The position numbers and the translations under genes are program-made. This document shows, in pieces, positions 1,773-46,038 of a stretch of DNA of 64,000 bases. Below the pieces are notes generated by a model. That model saw only the letters and a list, made by a program, of their open reading frames with translations. It was not told where the DNA came from and did no database searches. The stretch's first letter is position 1. Each line of letters starts with the position of its first letter. Source of the DNA: Dechloromonas sp. HYN0024 (GTDB lineage Bacteria > Pseudomonadota > Gammaproteobacteria > Burkholderiales > Rhodocyclaceae); contig NZ_CP031842.1 in the NCBI RefSeq assembly GCF_003441615.1, forward strand, positions 1,444,501-1,508,500, given 5' to 3'.

Positions 1773-4700
1773 CTATTGGGTCAGCTTGCGAATCATGTCT
1801 TTCACTGCGGCTACCTTGTCATTCAGGGTGGGGCAGTGGCGTAAAAGTGAAATTTTATCCTGTCCGGCCAGCTTATAGCTGCGGTCTTTCTGGATCAAAT
1901 TGATAATCTTGATCGGTTCGATAGGGGCGAGCCGGGCAAATTCCGGACTGAACTGCAGGGTGATCTGGTCATTGGTGGCATCCAGCTTCTGGATGCACAG
2001 CGGTTTGACCAGCAGGCGCAGGCGGTGCGTGGCGAGCAGGGATTGCGCTTGCAAGGGCAGTTCGCCGAAACGGTCGATCAGTTCTTCCTGCAAGGTGTCG
2101 ATTTCCTCGGCGCTTTCGCCATTGGCCAGACGCTTGTAGAGGGTCAGGCGTTCGTGCACATCGGGGCAGTAGGCGTCGGGCAGCAGGGCCGGGGTACGCA
2201 GGTTGATTTCGGTGCCGATGCCGAGCGGCTGGGTGAGGTCGGTGGCGGCCAGATGCTTGCCCTGTTTGAGGGCGGAAACGGCGCGGTTGAGCATCTCGGC
2301 GTACATGTTGAAGCCGACTTCCTGCATCTCGCCCGATTGGTTGTCGCCGAGCACTTCGCCGGCGCCCCGGATTTCGAGGTCGTGCATGGCGAGGAAGAAG
2401 CCGGAACCGAGTTCTTCCATGGCCTGAATGGCTTCGAGGCGCATCTTGGCCTGCTTGGTCATCGACTTTTCGTCCTGCACCAGCATATAGGCGTAGGCCT
2501 GATGGTGTGAACGGCCGACCCGGCCACGCAACTGGTGCAACTGGGCGAGGCCGAATTTCTCGGAGCGGTTGATCAGGATGGTGTTGGCGTGCGGGTTGTC
2601 GATGCCGGTTTCGATGATGGTCGTGCACAGCAGCAGGTTGGCGCGCTGGCCGGTAAAGTCGCGCATGACGCGTTCGAGTTCGCGCTCGTTCATCTGGCCG
2701 TGGCCGATCACGATGCGCGCCTCGGGCACCAGCTTTTCGAGCTTTTCGCGCATGTTGTCGATGGTGTCGACCTCGTTGTGCAGGAAATACACCTGGCCGC
2801 CGCGCTTGAGTTCGCGCAGCACGGCTTCGCGGATGATGCCGTCGGAGAAGCGGCTGACGAAGGTCTTGATGGCCAGACGTTTCTGCGGCGCAGTGGCGAT
2901 CACCGAAAAGTCGCGCAGGCCCTCCATGCTCATTGCCAGCGTGCGCGGGATGGGCGTTGCCGTCAGGGTCAGGACATCGACCTCGGCTCGCATGGCTTTC
3001 AGGGTTTCCTTCTGGCGTACGCCGAAACGGTGTTCTTCGTCGATGACGACGAGGCCGAGGCGGTTGAACCTGACGTCCTTGCCGATCAACTTGTGGGTGC
3101 CGATGATGATGTCGATCTTGCCGTCAGCCAGTTCCTGCAGCGCCTGCGCTGACTCCTTGGCGGTCTTGAAGCGGGAGATTTCGGCGATGCGCACCGGCCA
3201 GTCGGCAAAGCGGTCGGTAAAGGTCTGGTAATGCTGTTCGCAGAGCAGGGTGGTCGGGCATAGCACGGCGACCTGCTTGCCACCGGCCACAGCACAAAAA
3301 GCGGCGCGTAGGGCGACCTCGGTCTTGCCGAAACCGACGTCGCCACAGACCAGGCGGTCCATCGGCTTGCCAGAGCGCATGTCGTTGATGACGGCAGCGA
3401 TGGCAGTGGCCTGGTCGTTGGTCTCCTCGAAGCCGAAACCGTCGGCGAAGGCCTCGTAATCGGTTTCCTTGAAGTCGAAGGCGTGGCCCTGACGGGCAGC
3501 GCGGGCGGCATACAGTGAGAGTAGTTCGGCGGCGGTGTCGCGGGCCTGCTCGGCGGCCTTGCGCTTGGCTTTTTCCCACTGGCCGGAACCGAGGATGTGC
3601 AGCGGGGCGCTGTCCGGGTCGGCGCCGGAGTAGCGGGAAATGACGTGCAGTTGCGCCACTGGAACGAAGAGCTTGGCATCGCTGGCATAGTGAAGTTCAA
3701 GGAACTCTTGTTCGCCGAGGCCGAGATCCATGCGGACCAGACCCTGATAACGTCCGATGCCGTGGCTTTCATGAACCACCGGGTCGCCCACCTTGAGTTC
3801 AGTGAGATCCTTCAGCCAGTTATCGAAGCTGGCTTTCTTCTGTGCCTCCCGCCGGGTGCGGCGCGGGCTGCCGGCGAACAGTTCAGTCTCGGTGATGAAG
3901 GCCAGTTTTTCCAGGGCGAAACCGGCTTGCAGCGGCCCGATGCCGAGTGCCAGATGGGCCTTGCCGGTCAGGAAAGCTGGCAGATCGGCGAGGCCCTCGG
4001 GTTTCAGGCCATGTTCGGCAAACATCGCGGCCAGGGTTTCACGCCGACCGGCGGTTTCGGCGACCAGCAAGATGCGGCCGGCGAAACCGGTGAGGTAGTC
4101 TTTCAGTGCACCGAGCGGCGTATCGCTGCGTCGGTCAACGGCAATGTTGGGTAGCGTGCCGGCCGCATTCTGGCGCTCAAAGGCGAGCCGTCCGTAGGCC
4201 TTGGCGGCGGTGAAAAAGGCTTCGTCGGAGAGAAAAAGTTCATCCGGTGGCAGTAGCGGTCGTGACTTGTCGCCCTGCAACAGGTTGTAGCGCGACCGGG
4301 TATCGGCCCAGAAGGCGGCAATGGCGGCCGGTGCGTCGCCATGGGTGACAAAGACGGCATCCTTCGGCAGGTAGTCGAAAAGGCTGGCCATCTCGTCGAA
4401 GAAGAGCGGCTGGTAGTACTCGATGCCGGCGCTGGCAATGCCCGTCGAGATGTCCTTGTAGATGCCCGACTTGGCCGGGTCGCCCTCGAAGCGCTCGCGG
4501 AAGCACTGGCGGAAATGCGTCCGTCCCTTGTCGTCCATGGGGAATTCGCGGGCCGGCAGCAGGCGGACTTCCGGCACCGGATAGACCGTCCGCTGGGTAT
4601 CGACGTCGAAGGTCTTGATGCTTTCGATTTCATCGTCGAACAGGTCGAGCCGGTAAGGCAGTTGCGAGCCCATCGGGAAGAGATCGATCAGACCGCCGCG

Positions 4701-5646: not shown

Positions 5647-6236
5647 TTAACCGGGAAGATGCCGCAAAAACCATACGGCGGCCGGCGTGGCAGGATCTTC
5701 ACCGATATTGATGGTCTGCATCTCGTGAAGGCAGGCCAGGTGCGAGGTGGCACGTTGATAGGCGGCCTTTGCGGCCTGATCGTCAGTGTTGAACAGCATG
5801 AGCAGGGGGGCCATCAGGAGGTCGAGCGCCTGCCCCCCGGCGCGGTCGATCAGACCGCCATGACAGGCTACGGCCTTGACTTGCGTATCGCGCTGGGCAG
5901 CTGACCGAATGGCGGCCGGGGCGACATCGCCGGTGGTGAAAATGGTCAGTGGCAATTTTTCCATGTCGCCGTCGAGGCGGATCATGTCGAGGAGGTCGAT
6001 CAGGCGCTGGGTGAGGCGAGGTACGTTCTGGGTTGCATCGGCGAATTGCATCTCCTGGGCAGTCAGCAGTTCCATGGTGAAGGGGGCAAAGCCGAATTCG
6101 ACGAAGCACGATGAAATGGCGGCATCCTGGGCCGCGTGATGGGCGCGGGCGATGAGGATCAGGCCGCGTGGTTCCTCGGGTAGTTCAAGCTGGCCGTGTA
6201 GCGAGCCGTGGGGAGTTTGCTGGGTGATGTAGCGGT

Positions 6237-6240
<4 letters not shown>
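5647..6240 (-). CDS. Alpha/beta-hydrolase (dienelactone-hydrolase-like) protein lacking the usual nucleophile
   Basis: The 197-aa sequence follows the short DLH-like alpha/beta hydrolases (typical elbow GASTGAAAAL). Matching blocks are GLILIARAHHAA near the N-terminus, FTTGDVAPAAIRSAA at the elbow, and LMAPLLMLFNTDD. At the elbow the expected Gly-x-Ser-x-Gly serine is replaced: the aligned residue is Gly in TTGDV. The protein may therefore be catalytically dead or use different chemistry; this alignment is by eye. Its ATG overlaps the amrS stop by 4 bp, so it is translationally coupled to the AmmeMemoRadiSam genes. Confidence 0.65.
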
Positions 6241-7327
<1,087 letters not shown>

Positions 7328-39615: not shown

Positions 39616-40764
39616 ATGTTTCAAGCCTTTCTCAGCCCTTGGGTTAGCCGATCAGACCGGTTTGCGTTGGTACGGATTGCCGCATTGCTGTTGCTTGCCC
39701 TCTCGCCGCCCGTGCAGGCCGGGGTTTTCGACGCGATTTCCGACCTCTCCAAAGCCATCAGCGAGGGCAATGCCAAAGCGGATGCGAAGAGTGATGCCGA
39801 TTTCGAAGAGGATACCAGCAAGAAATTTCCACCCTATCGCTTCGAGGCACCCGCTGCCAGCCAGTCCGCGCAATATGTTGAGACCGTGCGTGGTAGCAAC
39901 TTCAAGAGTATCAAGAAAGTCGGTATCGTTAATTTCAGTGTCGAATTCGCCTTGTTCAAAGAAGTTAGCGCCATGGGTGGCAGCCAGTATCAGGGTGGTA
40001 CCGCACGCGATTCGACCAAGTCGATGAAAATCCCGCAGCCCGAGGTGGCGCGCTTGCAGCAGATGGTGGATAGCCTTTATGCCCGAACTGCCCAAGATTT
40101 TGCTTCGATGGGCATCGAAGTCGTGCCCTTTGAACGCCTGAAGGCGACCAAGCATTTCGCCGAGCTAGCGCCTGCCCAGCATGCCTCGCCCTGGCTGACC
40201 GATACCAAGGATTCACAATCGGTATTCATCGCCCCAAGCGGCATGCCGCTCTACATGGACAACCCCAACCGGGCAGATTTTCTGAAGGGACTGGGCTTTA
40301 CCTTTGGTACCAACACCCGCATGAAGGAAATCATGATGACCTATGACCTCAATCAGGAGGTTCATCTGGTCTCGGTCAACATGGTGGTCGACTTCGCCGC
40401 ACTGAAGAGTTCGGGCAGTAGTTTTCTTTCGGTGGCTTCGACGCGAGGGGCAAATCTGCACCATCTGCACGCCAGCAACACCTTCTACCGCTTCATCAGC
40501 ACAACCCAGCCTGAACTCATGGTCGTCAAGCTCAAGCAGCCTCTGGTTTCGGATGTTCGACTGATTGCGGAAACATCGACGGTCAAGGGGCAGGTCAGCA
40601 CCCAAAACTTCAACGCGACCGGCATGGCGGTTGAAACAACACAAAAAGATGCCTATAACCGTGGCGCAGGCCAGTTCGACCAGGAGTCCTATTACCGGCG
40701 CAGCGGCGACATGCTGGATGCTTCACGCCAGATGTTTGCCGAGGAACTGCGCAAGCTTCGCTAA
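39616..40764 (+). CDS. Exported protein of unknown function
   Basis: The 382-aa protein has an N-terminal signal sequence: a hydrophobic stretch near residues 19-35, cleavage near VQAG. Its mature part is otherwise soluble and has no motif I know. The 'FISTTQPELMVVKLKQP' block and frequent Ser/Ala suggest a periplasmic or surface protein. A good AGAGGAG precedes the ATG. It is a single gene, 128 bp upstream of the tRNA-Asn element's left end. Confidence 0.75.
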   Translation: MFQAFLSPWVSRSDRFALVRIAALLLLALSPPVQAGVFDAISDLSKAISEGNAKADAKSDADFEEDTSKKFPPYRFEAPAASQSAQYVETVRGSNFKSIKKVGIVNFSVEFALFKEVSAMGGSQYQGGTARDSTKSMKIPQPEVARLQQMVDSLYARTAQDFASMGIEVVPFERLKATKHFAELAPAQHASPWLTDTKDSQSVFIAPSGMPLYMDNPNRADFLKGLGFTFGTNTRMKEIMMTYDLNQEVHLVSVNMVVDFAALKSSGSSFLSVASTRGANLHHLHASNTFYRFISTTQPELMVVKLKQPLVSDVRLIAETSTVKGQVSTQNFNATGMAVETTQKDAYNRGAGQFDQESYYRRSGDMLDASRQMFAEELRKLR

Positions 40765-40852
40765 ATTGCCCGAGATTATCGGGGGGGCAAGGCCAGGATT
40801 TTGCCGTGTCCCCAATCGATGGGAATCGACCGAATTTTTGGCCAGAAAACAA

Positions 40853-40879
40853 AAAACCCAACCAAATTGGCTGGGTTTT
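40853..40879. terminator. Terminator, probably the original tRNA-Asn 3' terminator
   Basis: The stem is AAAACCCA-a-CCA paired with TGG-c-TGGGTTTT, with one mismatch. Read on the minus strand it ends in a T6 run. It lies immediately beyond the left att repeat, where the host tRNA-Asn gene would have ended before insertion. On the plus strand it can also end the 39616-40764 gene. Confidence 0.75.
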
Positions 40880-40892
40880 CTGATGTGTTTTC

Positions 40893-40937
40893 TGGCTCCC
40901 CGACCTGGGCTCGAACCAGGGACCTACGGATTAACAG
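40893..40937. repeat. attL: 45-bp copy of the tRNA-Asn 3' part
   Basis: This stretch is identical to 45963-46007, that is, the T arm, variable region and part of the anticodon arm of tRNA-Asn up to the anticodon. Immediately after it (from 40938) the sequence diverges from the tRNA. It marks the left boundary of the integrated element. Confidence 0.95.
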
Positions 40938-40998
40938 AATCACTAGCCGATAGATAATCGTATATATATCAGCACCTTGCAATGATCGCCAACTCAAA

Positions 40999-41071
40999 AA
41001 ACAGGCCTAAACAGGCCAGCAAAGTCCCGATTTGCCTAGGTACAGCTACGAACTGGCTACACCTAACAGGC
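40999..41071. repeat. Three short direct repeats near attL
   Basis: AAACAGGCC occurs at 40999-41007 and again at 41009-41017, 10 bp apart and so on one face of the helix. A partial copy, TAACAGGC, lies at 41064-41071. Location just inside attL suggests integrase arm sites or Rep/excisionase sites; this is inference. Confidence 0.5.
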
Positions 41072-41108
41072 AACAATCAGCCAAAAACGACACTTACCTT
41101 CGGGAAAA

Positions 41109-41387
41109 GTGCCTAACACAAAAGCCTACAAATTAATCGATGAAATGGAGGCTCGCGCTCGGTTTGATCATTTTTTAGCCTCCCTCCCATCAATTGCGGC
41201 GACCGAAATGGGGAAGCAAGAACTAGCTCGTGGGGAGAAAGACTTCCTGTTTCTCGAAGTCTGAAAAAATGTAGCCAGCGAAACTGACCTGGCACACGTC
41301 GGCGATTTACAAAGTCACCCTGTGAAGGCAACCACAAGGGCGGCATATGAGCAGGCTGGCGAAAAGGTGATGCCTGCGAAGGAATAA
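41109..41387 (+). pseudogene. Small gene with an in-frame TGA, broken or two tiny ORFs
   Basis: A GTG at 41109, preceded by GGGAAAA, opens a frame of 51 codons (PNTKAYKLIDEMEARARFDH...) ending at TGA 41262-41264. The same frame continues with protein-like sequence (TTRAAYEQAGEKVMPAKE) to TAA 41385-41387. One nonsense mutation in a gene of about 92 codons explains this best. It is too short for ordinary gene calling, and I recognise no family. Confidence 0.4.
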
Positions 41388-41389
41388 CC

Positions 41390-41440
41390 ATGAATAGAAA
41401 ATGGGATCAGCATTCTGCACTGGAAGGTAATTATATATAA
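41390..41440 (+). other. 16-codon ORF with a good ribosome site, probably a gene start cut off at the AT-rich segment
   Basis: The ATG follows AAGGA at 6-nt spacing and lies 3 bp after the preceding stop. It encodes MNRKWDQHSALEGNYI and then stops just where the sequence becomes very AT-rich. It looks like the beginning of a longer gene truncated by later insertion of the acyltransferase segment. Confidence 0.35.
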
Positions 41441-41497
41441 CGATCAATCTTTGCCATTTATGAATTACGTTATAGTGTGCCGTTAGATAGACCTTTG

Positions 41498-42627
41498 CTA
41501 TAGGAAATAATTCCTTATTTTAATTTGAATCGGCCTCTCAATATAGATGAATGAAAGACGTCCTACTGCGACCATAAAAAACAAAAATAACACAAGCGCC
41601 AACGGATAATTAAAAAAAGACCTGTCAAGAGAAAATATATCAAAACCAATTATCACCGCAATCTGGATTGGCAAATGCCACAGGTACGTTGAGTACGTCA
41701 AGCTTCCTACAAAAAGAAAGATTTTTTCTGCTTTTACGCACAGCTGTGATGCATCTATCGTTGCTGCAAGCAACACACAAAAACAGAATGCACTAGACAT
41801 CCCTAAATGCATCATTAAGCTATCGAATTTCGCAAAATTTGAGGAGACCAACGGGATCCCATCGAAATACAAATGATTGGTCTTAAGATAAAAAATTGCC
41901 ACTGCGCACGAAGCAACAGCAATAGTCAGATAATTTTTTAATCTTAATGTACAGGCTAAGCCAAAAAACATATACGCTGTCGACCCAGACATAAAATAGA
42001 AAAAACACTGTCCGATTATCCCCGCAATTGGCATTGAAATTAATGCTATGACTGAGAAAAAAGTGATTTTCCTGCGGAGAAATTTCCGTGCCGAGCCGCT
42101 ATTATCCAGAAACACCAGTAAGCTATTTCTTCAACAGATATTGACCATACTGGGCTATTAAATGAATAACCTTTTTCAAACCCCCAATTAGAAGCAAATA
42201 GCAAATGAAGAAAAAAATGATATGCATCATTTATTGCTAGAATCTGGAATTTGCCGGTTGAATACAGACTTCCATATTGAAGGACCGAAATAAATGCAAG
42301 AGTAATAATGTGTAGAGGATATAGCCTTGACATTCTGAATATGAAAAATGTTTTCGCTCCCGTTTTCTTATTTGAATATACATGCGCAAATACAAATCCA
42401 GAAATAACCCAAAAGAACTGAACAGCCCAAGCTCCGTAGTGATAAAAAGGCCAGAGCCATCCATAGAATGGCTGAACATCAAAGTCCCAGACCGGATTTC
42501 CTGTTTCAGGGGAAAAATATGGTTGGACAAAATAAAAGTGGTGATAGTGCCAAACCAGAATAACAAATGCCCCAAGGCCTCGCAGGAAATCAACAGCAGG
42601 AAAGTACTTACATTGTGTATTTTGCAT
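41498..42627 (-). pseudogene. Acyltransferase-3 family membrane protein, split by a -1 frameshift
   Basis: The N-terminal frame (42046-42627) begins FPAVDFLRGLGAFVILVWHY, the acyltransferase-3 signature with its catalytic His. It reaches WSISVEEIAYW before stopping. The C-terminal frame (41498-42115) continues with six or seven transmembrane segments and ends in YIERPIQIKIRN. Adding one T to the T6 run (A6 at 42057-42062 on the plus strand) joins the two frames into about 375 aa. Such proteins O-acylate cell-surface sugars. The DNA is strongly AT-rich and clearly foreign. It could be a pseudogene, a phase-variable gene or a sequencing error. Confidence 0.75.
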
Positions 42628-42668
42628 TGACTAATATCAGTAGATTTTGCGGGCGCTTGCGTGGTTTT

Positions 42669-42693
42669 TTGACTATATTTTGCTGATTATAAT
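42669..42693 (+). promoter_or_regulatory. Candidate promoter for the 310-aa gene
   Basis: A perfect -10 box TATAAT lies at 42688-42693, with TTGACT at 42669-42674. The spacer is only 13 bp, so the -35 match may be accidental. The sequence ATTATAAT is self-complementary and could also serve the divergent acyltransferase gene. Confidence 0.35.
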
Positions 42694-42761
42694 CCATCAA
42701 GACTTTGTTGCCTGAATGTCGGGGTTGGGTACATAACGAAAATGGCACAATAATTCACTCT

Positions 42762-43694
42762 ATGTTCCAACCGCTATCCATACCTCGCCGCCTCATAGAT
42801 AAGCTCATTCGAAAAATGACGCCACTCATCACCGAGACGGTTGCGTTATTCAAAGCAAATGCTGACCCGGATGGCTTGACGCCGAAGCTGAAGGAGTGGA
42901 ACAGCCGCTATGAGGTGGGAGGCTGGGCCAGCGCCTATGAAGAGTTCGGTAATTTCCTGCTGATACACTTGTCAGCATTACCCGTTTATGGAAATCCACT
43001 CGAGAGCCTTGCGCCACTCCTGGTCGTCAAAACGCTGAATGACCTCCAAGATTGGGCTGATCAAACCTGGCAAATCCTTGATCAGGTATTGGACGATGAC
43101 AGTGACGACGCCATTGATGCTGCGACAATGGGATTACCTGAGCTGATCCCAGGTATCACCGTCGATGACGACAGCAAGCCAATTTCTCGCCAAGCTTTAT
43201 TTATCACCGTAGCACTGATAGTTGTCTTCAACCACTTCGCGTGCATGGTGCACCGTAAATCCCTTTTCCAACTGGTGGCAGAAGCCAAAGCGGGTGACGA
43301 TGAGTCGCTGCTGAAAGCCATCCAGATCGACAAGCAATGCTTGGCCGATATTCCGTATTTCCAGGAGCGTCTGATCCAGGCGGCGATTGCCGGGGAAGAC
43401 AACTTCGTGCGCCGACTGATGCAATATCGCAAGAAGCCTGCCTTTCAAACGGGAACAGCGCTGCAGCCGTTATATCTGGTTCTCAGCCTACTGGACGGCA
43501 TGGGGTTACTCGATGCCTATCTGGAAGACTTCGAGCGGTTTGCTGATCTCTGCCAGGAACTTGGTATCTATGGACCAGATAACGACGCATGTGACACAGA
43601 GAGCCTCGCCAAAACAGTGCGCCGATTTAAGGCGAAATACCGCTCTCTTGCGCCATCTCAAAAAATTGCATGGGTGATCAAGGACACGGTTTAG
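42762..43694 (+). CDS. Element-borne helical protein of unknown function
   Basis: The protein is 310 aa from the ATG at 42762. A TTG at 42705 and an ATG 18 codons further in (MTPLITETVALFKANADPDG) are alternatives; none has a strong Shine-Dalgarno sequence. It is predicted by eye to be almost all helical, acidic in the middle (DQVLDDDSDDAID), with no signal peptide and one moderately hydrophobic stretch (ALFITVALIVVFNHF). I know no family for it. It lies between the acyltransferase and rep and is the main candidate for element-specific function, such as replication control, exclusion or defence. Confidence 0.65.
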   Translation: MFQPLSIPRRLIDKLIRKMTPLITETVALFKANADPDGLTPKLKEWNSRYEVGGWASAYEEFGNFLLIHLSALPVYGNPLESLAPLLVVKTLNDLQDWADQTWQILDQVLDDDSDDAIDAATMGLPELIPGITVDDDSKPISRQALFITVALIVVFNHFACMVHRKSLFQLVAEAKAGDDESLLKAIQIDKQCLADIPYFQERLIQAAIAGEDNFVRRLMQYRKKPAFQTGTALQPLYLVLSLLDGMGLLDAYLEDFERFADLCQELGIYGPDNDACDTESLAKTVRRFKAKYRSLAPSQKIAWVIKDTV

Positions 43695-43741
43695 GCGAAA
43701 CCCGGTCCGTGCCTCACCGCTAGGTCGTGCTTAATAGTTCG

Positions 43742-43775
43742 GGCTGCCCATTTATTTGGACGGTCCAGGGCAGCC
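43742..43775. promoter_or_regulatory. Nested inverted repeats ahead of rep, candidate nick site or regulator
   Basis: GGCTGCCC (43742-43749) pairs with GGGCAGCC (43768-43775). The loop contains the 11-bp palindrome TGGACGGTCCA (43757-43767). Rolling-circle origins often have this kind of cruciform, with the nick in a loop near the Rep gene. A transcription attenuator is the other reading; no T-run follows. Confidence 0.5.
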
Positions 43776-43777
43776 GT

Positions 43778-43798
43778 CCTCCATCTGCTTTTTGGAGG
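43778..43798 (+). promoter_or_regulatory. Hairpin that can hide the rep Shine-Dalgarno sequence
   Basis: CCTCCA (43778-43783) is complementary to TGGAGG (43793-43798) with a 9-nt loop. The second arm contains GGAGG, the ribosome site 5 nt before the rep ATG at 43804. Forming the hairpin would block translation, a normal way for RCR plasmids to limit Rep. Confidence 0.5.
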
Positions 43799-43803
43799 CA
43801 TGT

Positions 43804-44694
43804 ATGCACGAATCAAAGAAGAAATCGACCTCCCTCGGGCTGGCCGCGCGGATTGCCGCGCCAGCGGCAACCGCACGGCCAAACGAGGGAGGAAACGCGG
43901 TGCTTGAAGCGGGAACGCCGGCGATTGGAGCGGGAGGCGGCGAAGCCGCCGTTAGACTTGAAAAGAGGACACATCTCGACGAAGCCACCTATCGGATCAA
44001 GTTGCGCAATTACGGCAACGGTCTTGCAGAAATTGGTTGGTCATTCATTCCAGCATTGCCTCATTCAAAGGCATTGCGCGGCACTTCCGAAAAGCGCGAA
44101 GAAAACGTCGACCGTTCGGCTCGTCGTGCCAAATCTCGGTTACGTCATTTGATCCTGGCTACGAGAGCCAATCACCTTCTAACCATGACCTACCGGGCCA
44201 ACGTAACTGATTTCAATCAGGCCACCATCGACCTGGCGAAATTCGTTAGAAAGATCAAAACAAAGCTCCCCGGCTGGGTCTATGTTGGCGTTGCGGAACG
44301 CCAAGAGCGTGGGGCCTGGCATTGGCATCTTGCAGTCTGTGGTCGTCAGGATGTTGATCTGCTACGTGTTTGTTGGCTTGAAGTCGTTGGCGAAGGAAAC
44401 ATCGACGTAAGCGCACCTAAGGGTAAGAGTAGATTTCGGGAGCTCGCCCTTGTGAAGTACCTCGGCAAGTACTTAGCAAAGGGGTTCAGCTCCACAGATC
44501 GAAACCTTAACGCCCGTCGCTTTCGGGCCTCATTAGGTATCGAGGTTCCTATTGAGTTCCTGACAGTACCCAAAGATCAACACGGCAATATTACCGGCTT
44601 CGCCTTGAGCAGCCTTCACCAGGCAACGGGATCAATTGGCTTTGTCTGGAACGCCGACGATAAAACGGCGGGCTGGGCCTGCTCCTGGAAGTAA
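43804..44694 (+). CDS. HUH-type rolling-circle replication initiator
   Basis: The 296-aa protein has the three Rep landmarks in order. Motif 1 is LLTMTYR near 125-131. The metal-binding HUH motif is HWH at 173-175 in RGAWHWHLAV. The tyrosine motif is VKYLGKYLAK, with Y219 and Y223. The first 50 residues are a low-complexity Ala/Gly-rich segment. It should nick one strand at the origin and stay bound through tyrosine. Such Reps occur in filamentous and micro-phages and RCR plasmids. The ATG at 43804 has a perfect GGAGG; an open frame runs 48 bp further upstream. Confidence 0.82.
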   Translation: MHESKKKSTSLGLAARIAAPAATARPNEGGNAVLEAGTPAIGAGGGEAAVRLEKRTHLDEATYRIKLRNYGNGLAEIGWSFIPALPHSKALRGTSEKREENVDRSARRAKSRLRHLILATRANHLLTMTYRANVTDFNQATIDLAKFVRKIKTKLPGWVYVGVAERQERGAWHWHLAVCGRQDVDLLRVCWLEVVGEGNIDVSAPKGKSRFRELALVKYLGKYLAKGFSSTDRNLNARRFRASLGIEVPIEFLTVPKDQHGNITGFALSSLHQATGSIGFVWNADDKTAGWACSWK

Positions 44695-44698
44695 TCCC

Positions 44699-45025
44699 AT
44701 GGACACGCTCACCCTGCAACAGGCTGCCGCCTTCCTGAAGATTCATCCGGTCACTCTGCAAGAGAAAGCCAGGGCTGGTGAGATTCCCGGCGCCAAGATC
44801 GGTAAATGCTGGGTCTTTCTGGAAATTGACCTGATCGAGCACATCCGGTCACAATACCGGCGGCGAGCGTTGCAGGGTGCGCATGAAAGGAACATCACAT
44901 GTCACTCTTCAAACGCAAAGACTCGTCCTGCTGGTGGGTCAAAATCATCATCGACGGACGAAAGATACAACGCAGTACTGGGACTGACGACAAAATCAAA
45001 GCCCAGGAATTCCACGACCGGCTAA
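44699..45025 (+). CDS. Helix-turn-helix (excisionase-like) DNA-binding protein
   Basis: The protein starts MDTLTLQQAAAFLKIHPVTL and has the compact winged HTH of MerR/Xis type (about residues 4-55, including GKCWVFLEIDLIEHI). The remaining 50 residues have poor coding character and overlap the integrase start by 127 bp in another frame; a nearby product end may be accidental. It begins 4 bp after the rep stop. Given its place next to an integrase it probably directs excision or represses rep/int. Confidence 0.78.
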   Translation: MDTLTLQQAAAFLKIHPVTLQEKARAGEIPGAKIGKCWVFLEIDLIEHIRSQYRRRALQGAHERNITCHSSNAKTRPAGGSKSSSTDERYNAVLGLTTKSKPRNSTTG

Positions 45026-45915
45026 AAGCCCAGATGTGGGAACAGAATCGTCTGGGGGTCAAAGCTCGGCGATCCTGGAAGGAAGCGGTAGTTCGTTGGC
45101 TGGAGGAAACTTCGGAGAAGGCCACGCACCAGGAGGACAAGCGCAAGCTGAATTGGCTTGATACTTACCTCGGGGCGCTGATGTTGGATGAGATCACCCT
45201 GGATGTGATCGACACCATCAGATCGGCCAAACTCAAGGAAGCGGCCAAGGCGACGACCAACCGTTATTTGGCACTGACGCGCTCCATCCTGCTCCGTTCC
45301 AGGGATGAATGGGAATGGATCGACAAGGTGCCAAAGATTAGGCTCTTTAAAGAATCTGCAAGCCGTGAACGTTCTCTAACCCGAGAGCAGGCGGGGCGTC
45401 TATTGGATGAGTTACCGGAACACCAGCGCGATGTTGTTTTATTCGCTTTGGCGACTGGACTCAGGCAAAGCAATGTCCTCCAGCTCGAATGGTCACAGAT
45501 CAACCTGGAACAGCGCCATGCATGGATTCATGCCTGGCAGTCGAAGAACCGGCGACCGATTTCCATTCCGTTGAATGAGGCAGCCTATGCGGTCCTTCTT
45601 CGACAGAAGGGGAAACACCTAGAGCGCGTTTTTACGTTTCAGGGAAGGCCGTTGAACACCGCCAACACGCGTGCCTGGAGAAAGGCGCTGAAACGGGCGG
45701 GGATCGATAACTTCCGTTGGCATGATCTGAGGCATACCTGGGCAACGTGGCAACGACAGGCGGGAACACCGACTCATGAGTTACAGCGCTTGGGTGGGTG
45801 GCGAACTGGGGCAATGGTGGAGCGTTATGCTCATCTGGCTCCGGAACACCTCGCCGAAGCTGCCTCACGACTGAATTCCGTGCTCCTTGGCTACGATTCA
45901 GCTACGGTCGCCTAG
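44899..45915 (+). CDS. Tyrosine recombinase / phage-type integrase
   Basis: The 338-aa integrase has an arm-binding N-terminus, a core-binding SAM-like domain (about 60-150) and a catalytic domain with R189 (ATGLRQSN), H275-x-x-R278 (WHDLRHTW), W301 and nucleophile Y310 (MVERYAHL). All catalytic residues are present. It reads towards the tRNA-Asn gene and ends 47 bp before attR. It should recombine attP with the tRNA-Asn 3' end. GC content and codon use are lower than the flanking host genes. Confidence 0.93.
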   Translation: MSLFKRKDSSCWWVKIIIDGRKIQRSTGTDDKIKAQEFHDRLKAQMWEQNRLGVKARRSWKEAVVRWLEETSEKATHQEDKRKLNWLDTYLGALMLDEITLDVIDTIRSAKLKEAAKATTNRYLALTRSILLRSRDEWEWIDKVPKIRLFKESASRERSLTREQAGRLLDELPEHQRDVVLFALATGLRQSNVLQLEWSQINLEQRHAWIHAWQSKNRRPISIPLNEAAYAVLLRQKGKHLERVFTFQGRPLNTANTRAWRKALKRAGIDNFRWHDLRHTWATWQRQAGTPTHELQRLGGWRTGAMVERYAHLAPEHLAEAASRLNSVLLGYDSATVA

Positions 45916-45925
45916 AAAAGCAAAA

Positions 45926-45947
45926 AGCCCAGTCCGAAAACTGGGCT
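45926..45947. terminator. Terminator supplied by the element beside the tRNA
   Basis: AGCCCAGT pairs with ACTGGGCT around a 6-nt loop. Read on the minus strand it is followed by TTTTTGCTTTT, so it ends the tRNA-Asn transcript. The integrase gene also ends here, but with few Ts on the plus strand. It replaces the host terminator displaced to 40853-40879. Confidence 0.8.
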
Positions 45948-45962
45948 AAGTGCTTAATTCTA

Positions 45963-46007
45963 TGGCTCCCCGACCTGGGCTCGAACCAGGGACCTACGGA
46001 TTAACAG
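45963..46007. repeat. attR: 45-bp repeat forming the 3' part of the intact tRNA-Asn
   Basis: This is identical to 40893-40937. The element brought this copy and so restored the tRNA 3' half after insertion. The next bases (46008 on) are host tRNA sequence not found at attL. Confidence 0.95.
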
Positions 46008-46038
46008 TCCGGCGCTCTACCGACTGAGCTATCGAGGA
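45963..46038 (-). tRNA. tRNA-Asn (anticodon GUU)
   Basis: The 76-nt gene reads TCCTCGATAGCTCAGTCGGT at its 5' end and closes GGGGAGCCA with an encoded CCA. The 7-bp acceptor stem TCCTCGA/TCGGGGA forms with one T-G pair. The anticodon loop CTGTTAA gives GTT. It is the insertion site of the element and remains intact, its 3' half being supplied by attR. Confidence 0.97.

Follow-up and report, generated by a model that had tools for sequence, protein, structure and literature searches.

The 64,000-bp stretch of Dechloromonas sp. HYN0024 DNA analysed here (contig NZ_CP031842.1; the window) carries a 5,115-bp insertion, 40893-46007, in the 3' half of a tRNA-Asn gene. We consider it a good deal more probable than any other reading that this is an element predicted to excise, to replicate by rolling circle and to reinsert, with a transfer that is likely helper-dependent. 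By sequence, this view rests on the element's boundaries, the rep-xis-int reading frames, the restored tRNA gene, empty sites in relatives, a hairpin in rep, and the varied initiators and cargo found behind related integrases. The element is real and probably mobile. Below, L-numbers denote loci and G-numbers genomes compared with the window, and WIN denotes the window's own element.

The integrase (Int) and an excisionase-like protein (Xis) would excise the element as a circle, Rep would nick a likely origin hairpin in the start of its own gene and begin rolling-circle replication, and the circle is predicted to reinsert at tRNA-Asn; movement between cells would likely rely on an outside helper. 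The element would thus work like the rep-xis-int core of the actinomycete integrative and conjugative elements (AICEs) minus their DNA translocase, and would serve as a platform for exchanged cargo, which in several relatives includes restriction or abortive-infection genes. It combines an AICE-like core with a swappable initiator and cargo, and has no recognised transfer genes. Many anti-phage systems occupy small islands of unexplained movement, and the small islands described here bring their own predicted excision and rolling-circle genes, with varied initiators and cargo at tRNA sites.

Insertion at tRNA-Asn and empty sites

The insertion is bounded by a perfect 45-bp direct repeat (40893-40937 and 45963-46007), the copies lying 5,070 bp apart. 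The left attachment repeat corresponds to the 3' half of tRNA-Asn, and the right lies within the intact target gene, tRNA-Asn(gtt), on the minus strand (45963-46038). The repeated sequence therefore begins in the anticodon loop of the tRNA and runs on to its 3' end. The initial annotation of this DNA had described perfect 45-bp repeats with an intact tRNA-Asn on one side, and the repeat and tRNA searches agreed. Its further proposal, a minimal integrate-and-replicate element with no recognised packaging or conjugation gene, was upheld by profile scans of the open reading frames (ORFs): no capsid, relaxase or Tra gene was present in the element ORFs scanned.

The insertion site was empty in two genomes of the same genus, G112 (L046) and G062 (L047), where 12-13 kb were fetched per locus. 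The initial annotation had set the existence of such a site as a condition beforehand. The identical 45-mer was present once in each locus, which argues that the repeat at the element is not a chance occurrence. In L046, the joined window flanks aligned across the joint (columns 646-1052, joint 692/693, 79.8%). In L047, the alignment began at column 690, just before the repeat; the gene order was moaA, one tRNA-Asn and asmA, with no insert between them.

Another locus of the genus, L045 (G177), holds an integrase C-terminal remnant at 5966-6820, which adjoins tRNA-Asn and the same right flank as the window. It is probably a decayed relative at the same tRNA; its left side differs from that of the window, with no moaA match.

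Two terminator-like hairpins flank these boundaries on the minus strand. The first, left of the element (40850-40882), was probably the terminator of tRNA-Asn before the insertion displaced it; a similar sequence directly adjoins the tRNA at the empty site L046. The second (45926-45947) lies on the element side of the restored tRNA, and the element appears to supply it as a replacement, the tRNA's own terminator being left on the far side. The scan returned 6 terminator-like sites against 6.3 in shuffles, and the terminator reading rests on position.

Core genes and modular relatives

Rep (43804-44694, plus strand; 296 aa) matched PF23343 (E=5e-12) and phrog_3419, a rolling-circle initiator family (E=1e-51). 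ATG 43804 is the likely start because it lines up with the shorter homologues. The HWH motif (H189-W190-H191) and the tyrosines Y235/Y239 were invariant in 25/25 aligned rows, window included, which confirms an earlier call of an HUH-type Rep with paired tyrosines; the protein has both marks of an HUH endonuclease, the motif with its catalytic tyrosines and the Rep nuclease fold. Among plasmids, Rep had its best match (37%) on pMsip02, which is annotated with both a major capsid protein and a Zot-domain protein. Within the reach of that plasmid search, Rep falls outside the characterised plasmid families with mob genes, membership of which had been named as a refutation.

Xis (44699-45025, plus strand; 108 aa) is an excisionase-like helix-turn-helix protein, matching PF12728 (E=3e-12) and the excisionase family phrog_2907 (E=2e-8) and scoring 23.3 against TIGR01764, under the cut-off of 28.8. 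The tyrosine integrase (44899-45915, plus strand; 338 aa) matched PF00589 (E=5e-31), and the R, HxxR, W and Y residues, which we take to be the catalytic positions of tyrosine integrases, were all legible in its translation. Both assignments stand as first annotated. Since rep ends at 44694, close to xis, and int starts inside xis, the three genes look like one operon.

An integrase search at E<=1e-60 found relatives in 19/199 family genomes and 30/369 class genomes, the window's genome counted in each. We examined 56 integrase loci (the window, seven others and L110-L157), leaving out the contig-edge class matches in G397, G538 and G250. A tRNA gene lay within 800 bp of the integrase end in 47 of these, and an exact tRNA-derived repeat of 21-58 bp was present in 21, with L128 added by a looser search; the remaining loci had no repeat found, many because the contig ends. 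Seventeen of the 21 were mapped as elements of 4,569-8,704 bp with exact repeats of 28-58 bp, using eight tRNA species (tRNA-Asn, Met, Arg, Phe, Lys, Leu, Ala and Val); one of them, L116, has a broken integrase and a rep fragment only. The unmapped four are L149, L150 and L151, in which no initiator was recognised, and a locus containing an unreadable stretch; this biases the mapped set towards initiator-bearing elements.

Four initiator types were distinguished in 25/56 loci: R1 (PF23343) in 4, R2 in 15, R3 in 4 and R4 in 2, the assignments to R2 and R4 being made on weak evidence. R3 comprises L114 and L119, by PF02486, and L116 and L118, by clustering; R4 (L110, L115) may be distant kin of R1, as both match phrog_3419. 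PF02486 was also matched by L117 (weakly, E=0.0015) and L126 (clearly). No initiator was recognised in the remaining 29 of the 56 loci, some of which are cut by contig ends and others of which are different islands. In a tree of 50 integrases, whose bootstrap had not settled, the window fell in an eight-row clade (100/100) that contains four initiator types. The integrases of WIN and L110 are 86% identical, and the two elements use different tRNA genes (tRNA-Asn and tRNA-Lys) and different initiators. In these comparisons, related integrases accompany different initiators and cargo; the element is likely a swappable platform.

Just upstream of rep lies a recurrent gene for a helical protein, HEL (42762-43694, plus strand; 310 aa). 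ATG 42762 is its likely start: 310 aa is the commonest length (9 of the 37 listed matches, window copy included), and the database's window copy starts later, giving 292 aa. HEL had no Pfam, NCBIfam or PADLOC match, and its predicted fold (model pLDDT 83) had no match in the fold search. HEL, or a protein clustered with it by single-linkage blastp, immediately precedes the initiator gene in the window and in 11/11 R2 loci with upstream sequence (the L132 copy is partial; in the four further R2 loci the contig ends too early). L050, L052 and L053, three of these 11, were first picked up by the HEL search, and the integrase search lists their genomes as well. This position does not support the initial annotation, which had counted the helical protein as cargo. 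In 3/4 R1 loci, a different protein, REG, takes its place. HEL was found in 5/369 class genomes. For ten other HEL matches, the longest contig has the same length as the longest one for a Rep homologue, among 120 listed of 424 Rep matches, which suggests that HEL and Rep homologues are linked. The initiators of L053 and L131 share 91% identity and their adjoining HELs 28%, so HEL has been exchanged or evolves fast.

The window's own cargo is a split acyltransferase-3 gene on the minus strand, in two overlapping ORFs in different frames: an N-terminal part (42046-42627; PF01757 positions 2-150, E=1e-10) and a C-terminal part (41498-42115; positions 147-320, E=7e-6, below the family cut-off). 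A role as working cargo is therefore not supported.

The proposal of a platform with variable accessory genes found support in the relatives. Defence partner genes occur together in 4/17 mapped elements: AbiLi and AbiLii homologues in L053 and L117; a C5 methylase, an NgoMIV-type restriction enzyme and Vsr in L111; and two C5 methylases with an HNH protein in L131. L050, which is not closed, has a PDC-M68B match, and the cargo of the other relatives amounts to single domains at most. L053 and L131, from the same genus, occupy the same tRNA-Phe locus and align at 85% across 4,017 columns that start at the initiator, take in the tRNA and extend into the right flank; their cargo has no nucleotide match. 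As read from this alignment, cargo is exchanged at one site, AbiL in L053 against two methylases and HNH in L131. In L131, the repeats at 4007, 4920 and 5073 are successive half copies of tRNA-Phe, which looks like repeated insertion of elements at one site.

Hairpin within the start of rep

A 64-nt hairpin at 43829-43892, missed in the initial annotation, lies inside the start of rep and is a likely replication origin or strand-initiation site. The surrounding 181-nt stretch of the window folded better than 200/200 dinucleotide shuffles (z -4.6). Across the relatives, we took the best 70-nt fold starting no more than 150 nt from the gene start, in the 19 loci with a usable rep start; L110, L116, L117, L125, L136, L141 and L154 were excluded because their reps are fragmentary, contig-cut or doubtful. 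All 19 reps reached -15 kcal/mol, 17 reached -20 and 15 reached -24, and the 127 flanking genes numbered 15 at -20 and 5 at -24. At the last threshold, the difference (15/19 vs 5/127) gave a Fisher p of 5e-13, for sets whose base composition was unmatched and may differ. Mononucleotide shuffles of the chosen window gave z <=-2.2 in 18/19 loci, values that flatter the hairpin because the best window was chosen and that were computed for the rep loci and for none of the flanking genes.

WIN and L119 have a common 93-bp segment around the hairpin (87% identity), yet their Reps fall into separate Pfam families (PF23343 and PF02486) and show no blastp similarity at E<=1. Beyond this segment, the DNA match found between the two was limited to xis and the start of int. 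Their hairpins gave a local score of 48, against a maximum of 18 in 759 shuffled-hairpin comparisons, a null that does not keep the stem; the next best pairs across initiator types scored 20-24. The hairpin begins 25 nt past the likely ATG in WIN and 83 nt past the ORF start in L119, where the true start is unsure, so the two are read in different frames. Within the stem, three pairs are compensated and one is broken, which 67/500 shuffles equal or exceed and which is weak evidence. Between L053 and L131, the hairpin region differs at 22/75 sites and the remaining rep at 132/1,260; four pairs are compensated and three or four broken, with 33 and 36 of 500 shuffles reaching four. Our reading is that selection may act on a DNA or RNA stem and not on the peptide.

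A replication origin is the best reading of the hairpin; a complementary-strand initiation site is the alternative we infer. That it is instead an RNA element governing Rep translation seems unlikely. Lying 25 nt after the likely Rep ATG, an mRNA stem could influence translation; however, the hairpin recurs at the start of unrelated initiators, and the tail it encodes is predicted to be disordered (residues 8-74 of a 312-aa model have pLDDT <50), two observations with which an RNA role would still be compatible.

Several results weigh against the favoured reading of the element. Among the flanking genes, 48/127 likewise attain -15 kcal/mol. The hairpin of L124 is weak (z -1.2), and the best single hairpin of that locus sits upstream of rep. 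A Rep-specific origin would not predict a hairpin common to WIN and L119 with their unrelated Reps; the stem might instead be a strand-initiation site read by the host, or have some other cis role. No nick-site consensus was identified. The split acyltransferase indicates that part of the element is decaying, and clear defence gene sets are confined to only 4/17 mapped elements. If the hairpin is indeed independent of the initiator, this would bear on the exchange of replication modules among mobile elements.

A second strong hairpin, with ATCCAC at its base, was seen in L037 (8375-8430), L110, L111, L112, L114 and L127; it presumably resembles a primosome-assembly site. In L110, it includes the perfect 9-mer TTATCCACA, which we take to be a DnaA box. 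No DnaA box was found in the window element.

Possible routes of transfer and neighbouring features

Filamentous phages use integrases of the same broad family, as the Zot-bearing loci L126 and L128 carry them. The contig L126 (G070:C43, 1-11549), 11,549 bp long, begins and ends with the same 110 bases, an overlap that a circular molecule would leave. Its genes include those for Zot (PF05707), a Rep of family PF02486, ParB and a related integrase; a 54-bp tRNA-Asn fragment overlaps the integrase gene end, with no whole tRNA. This is probably a filamentous phage in its free, circular form, attachment site included. In L128, which pairs with L126 in the tree, a Zot match lies on the same contig, 4-5 kb from the integrase. 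Many tailed phages also have the same broad integrase family, with a best identity of 46% in phage records.

The element could be a satellite of integrating filamentous phages, in which a helper inovirus would package the single-stranded rolling-circle product with the hairpin as packaging signal. Rep relatives at 34-37% occur in filamentous-phage genomes, L126 and L128 have integrases of the same broad family (on a branch of their own in the tree), hairpins are alike across unrelated Reps, and a plasmid described as an inovirus satellite figures among the references of PMC11389934. Nevertheless, no Zot gene was present in the whole host genome (PF05707, E<=0.001; Zot-less inoviruses were not searched for), and Zot occurred in 4/19 integrase carriers against 32/180 other genomes (Fisher p 0.75), sharing a contig region with the integrase in two of the four Zot-positive carriers. 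Two exact patterns of the window hairpin matched no viral contig, and blastn with it gave no match among the phage records. Co-residence does not speak for a filamentous helper phage, and we regard the satellite explanation as quite improbable. Still further down, we place a degenerate filamentous prophage, no longer mobile after losing its structural genes. The kinship of Rep to inoviruses and the split cargo gene fit such decay; rep, xis, int and both repeats are nevertheless intact, and the same plan, lacking a capsid, is seen again in elements with other initiators at several tRNA genes, which argues against one decayed copy.

An integrative mobilisable element, borrowing a conjugation apparatus with Rep as its relaxase, would also account for the lack of any own transfer gene recognised in the scanned ORFs, and PMC11389934 names a relaxase family related to Rep_trans initiators. 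L114 and L119 have an initiator of the Rep_trans type, whereas that of the window is of another type, and the scanned ORFs contained no relaxase or mob family (an origin of transfer was not searched for); we think this explanation unlikely, if somewhat less so than the satellite.

Among known systems, the element is nearest in plan to AICEs such as pSAM2, which it resembles in its tyrosine integrase at a tRNA 3' end, its rolling-circle initiator and its rep-xis-int order. It differs in having no Tra (FtsK/SpoIIIE-like) translocase family in the scanned ORFs and in the HEL or REG upstream of rep in the window's group. Its Rep gave a weak match to the RepSA profile PF20199 (19 residues, E=6e-4; 19.5 bits, the cut-off being 34). 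With the Inoviridae (the pMsip02 record and L126), it has in common the Rep family (37% to pMsip02), small size and, in L126, an integrase of the same broad family, whereas no Zot, coat or attachment gene was recognised in it by the Pfam and PHROG scans. The I55 family islands, as described in PMC12595487, are transduced by a jumbo phage, exceed the ~20 kb of usual satellites, and have a tyrosine recombinase, flanking direct repeats, defence cargo and no autonomous-transfer genes; they also encode an 'inovirus Gp2-like protein' and YqaJ, RadC and AlpA-type genes. The recombinase, the repeats, the defence cargo and the absence of autonomous transfer genes are points of likeness; the YqaJ, RadC and AlpA-type genes were not seen in the element, and the transduction shown in that source is that of I55.

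More speculatively, and on balance doubtfully, these islands might amount to a class not recognised so far, namely rolling-circle 'defence shuttles' that lack both capsid and transfer genes. Their common cis hairpin, in the initiator's first codons, would be read by a non-initiator factor (the host primosome or helper machinery), which would leave initiators open to free exchange, mobility being maintained by the hairpin, Xis and Int, and HEL would be a fast-changing host or helper interface. A cis hairpin common to the islands makes their replication and the missing transfer steps experimentally accessible.

Left of the acyltransferase, the short ORFs 41109-41264 and 41113-41391 had no Pfam or PHROG family at E<=0.01; still shorter ORFs were not scanned. 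Between moaA and the element lies a 382-aa gene (39616-40764) with no Pfam match. It had no tblastn match at the empty sites L046 and L047, so the left flank of the element is itself variable.

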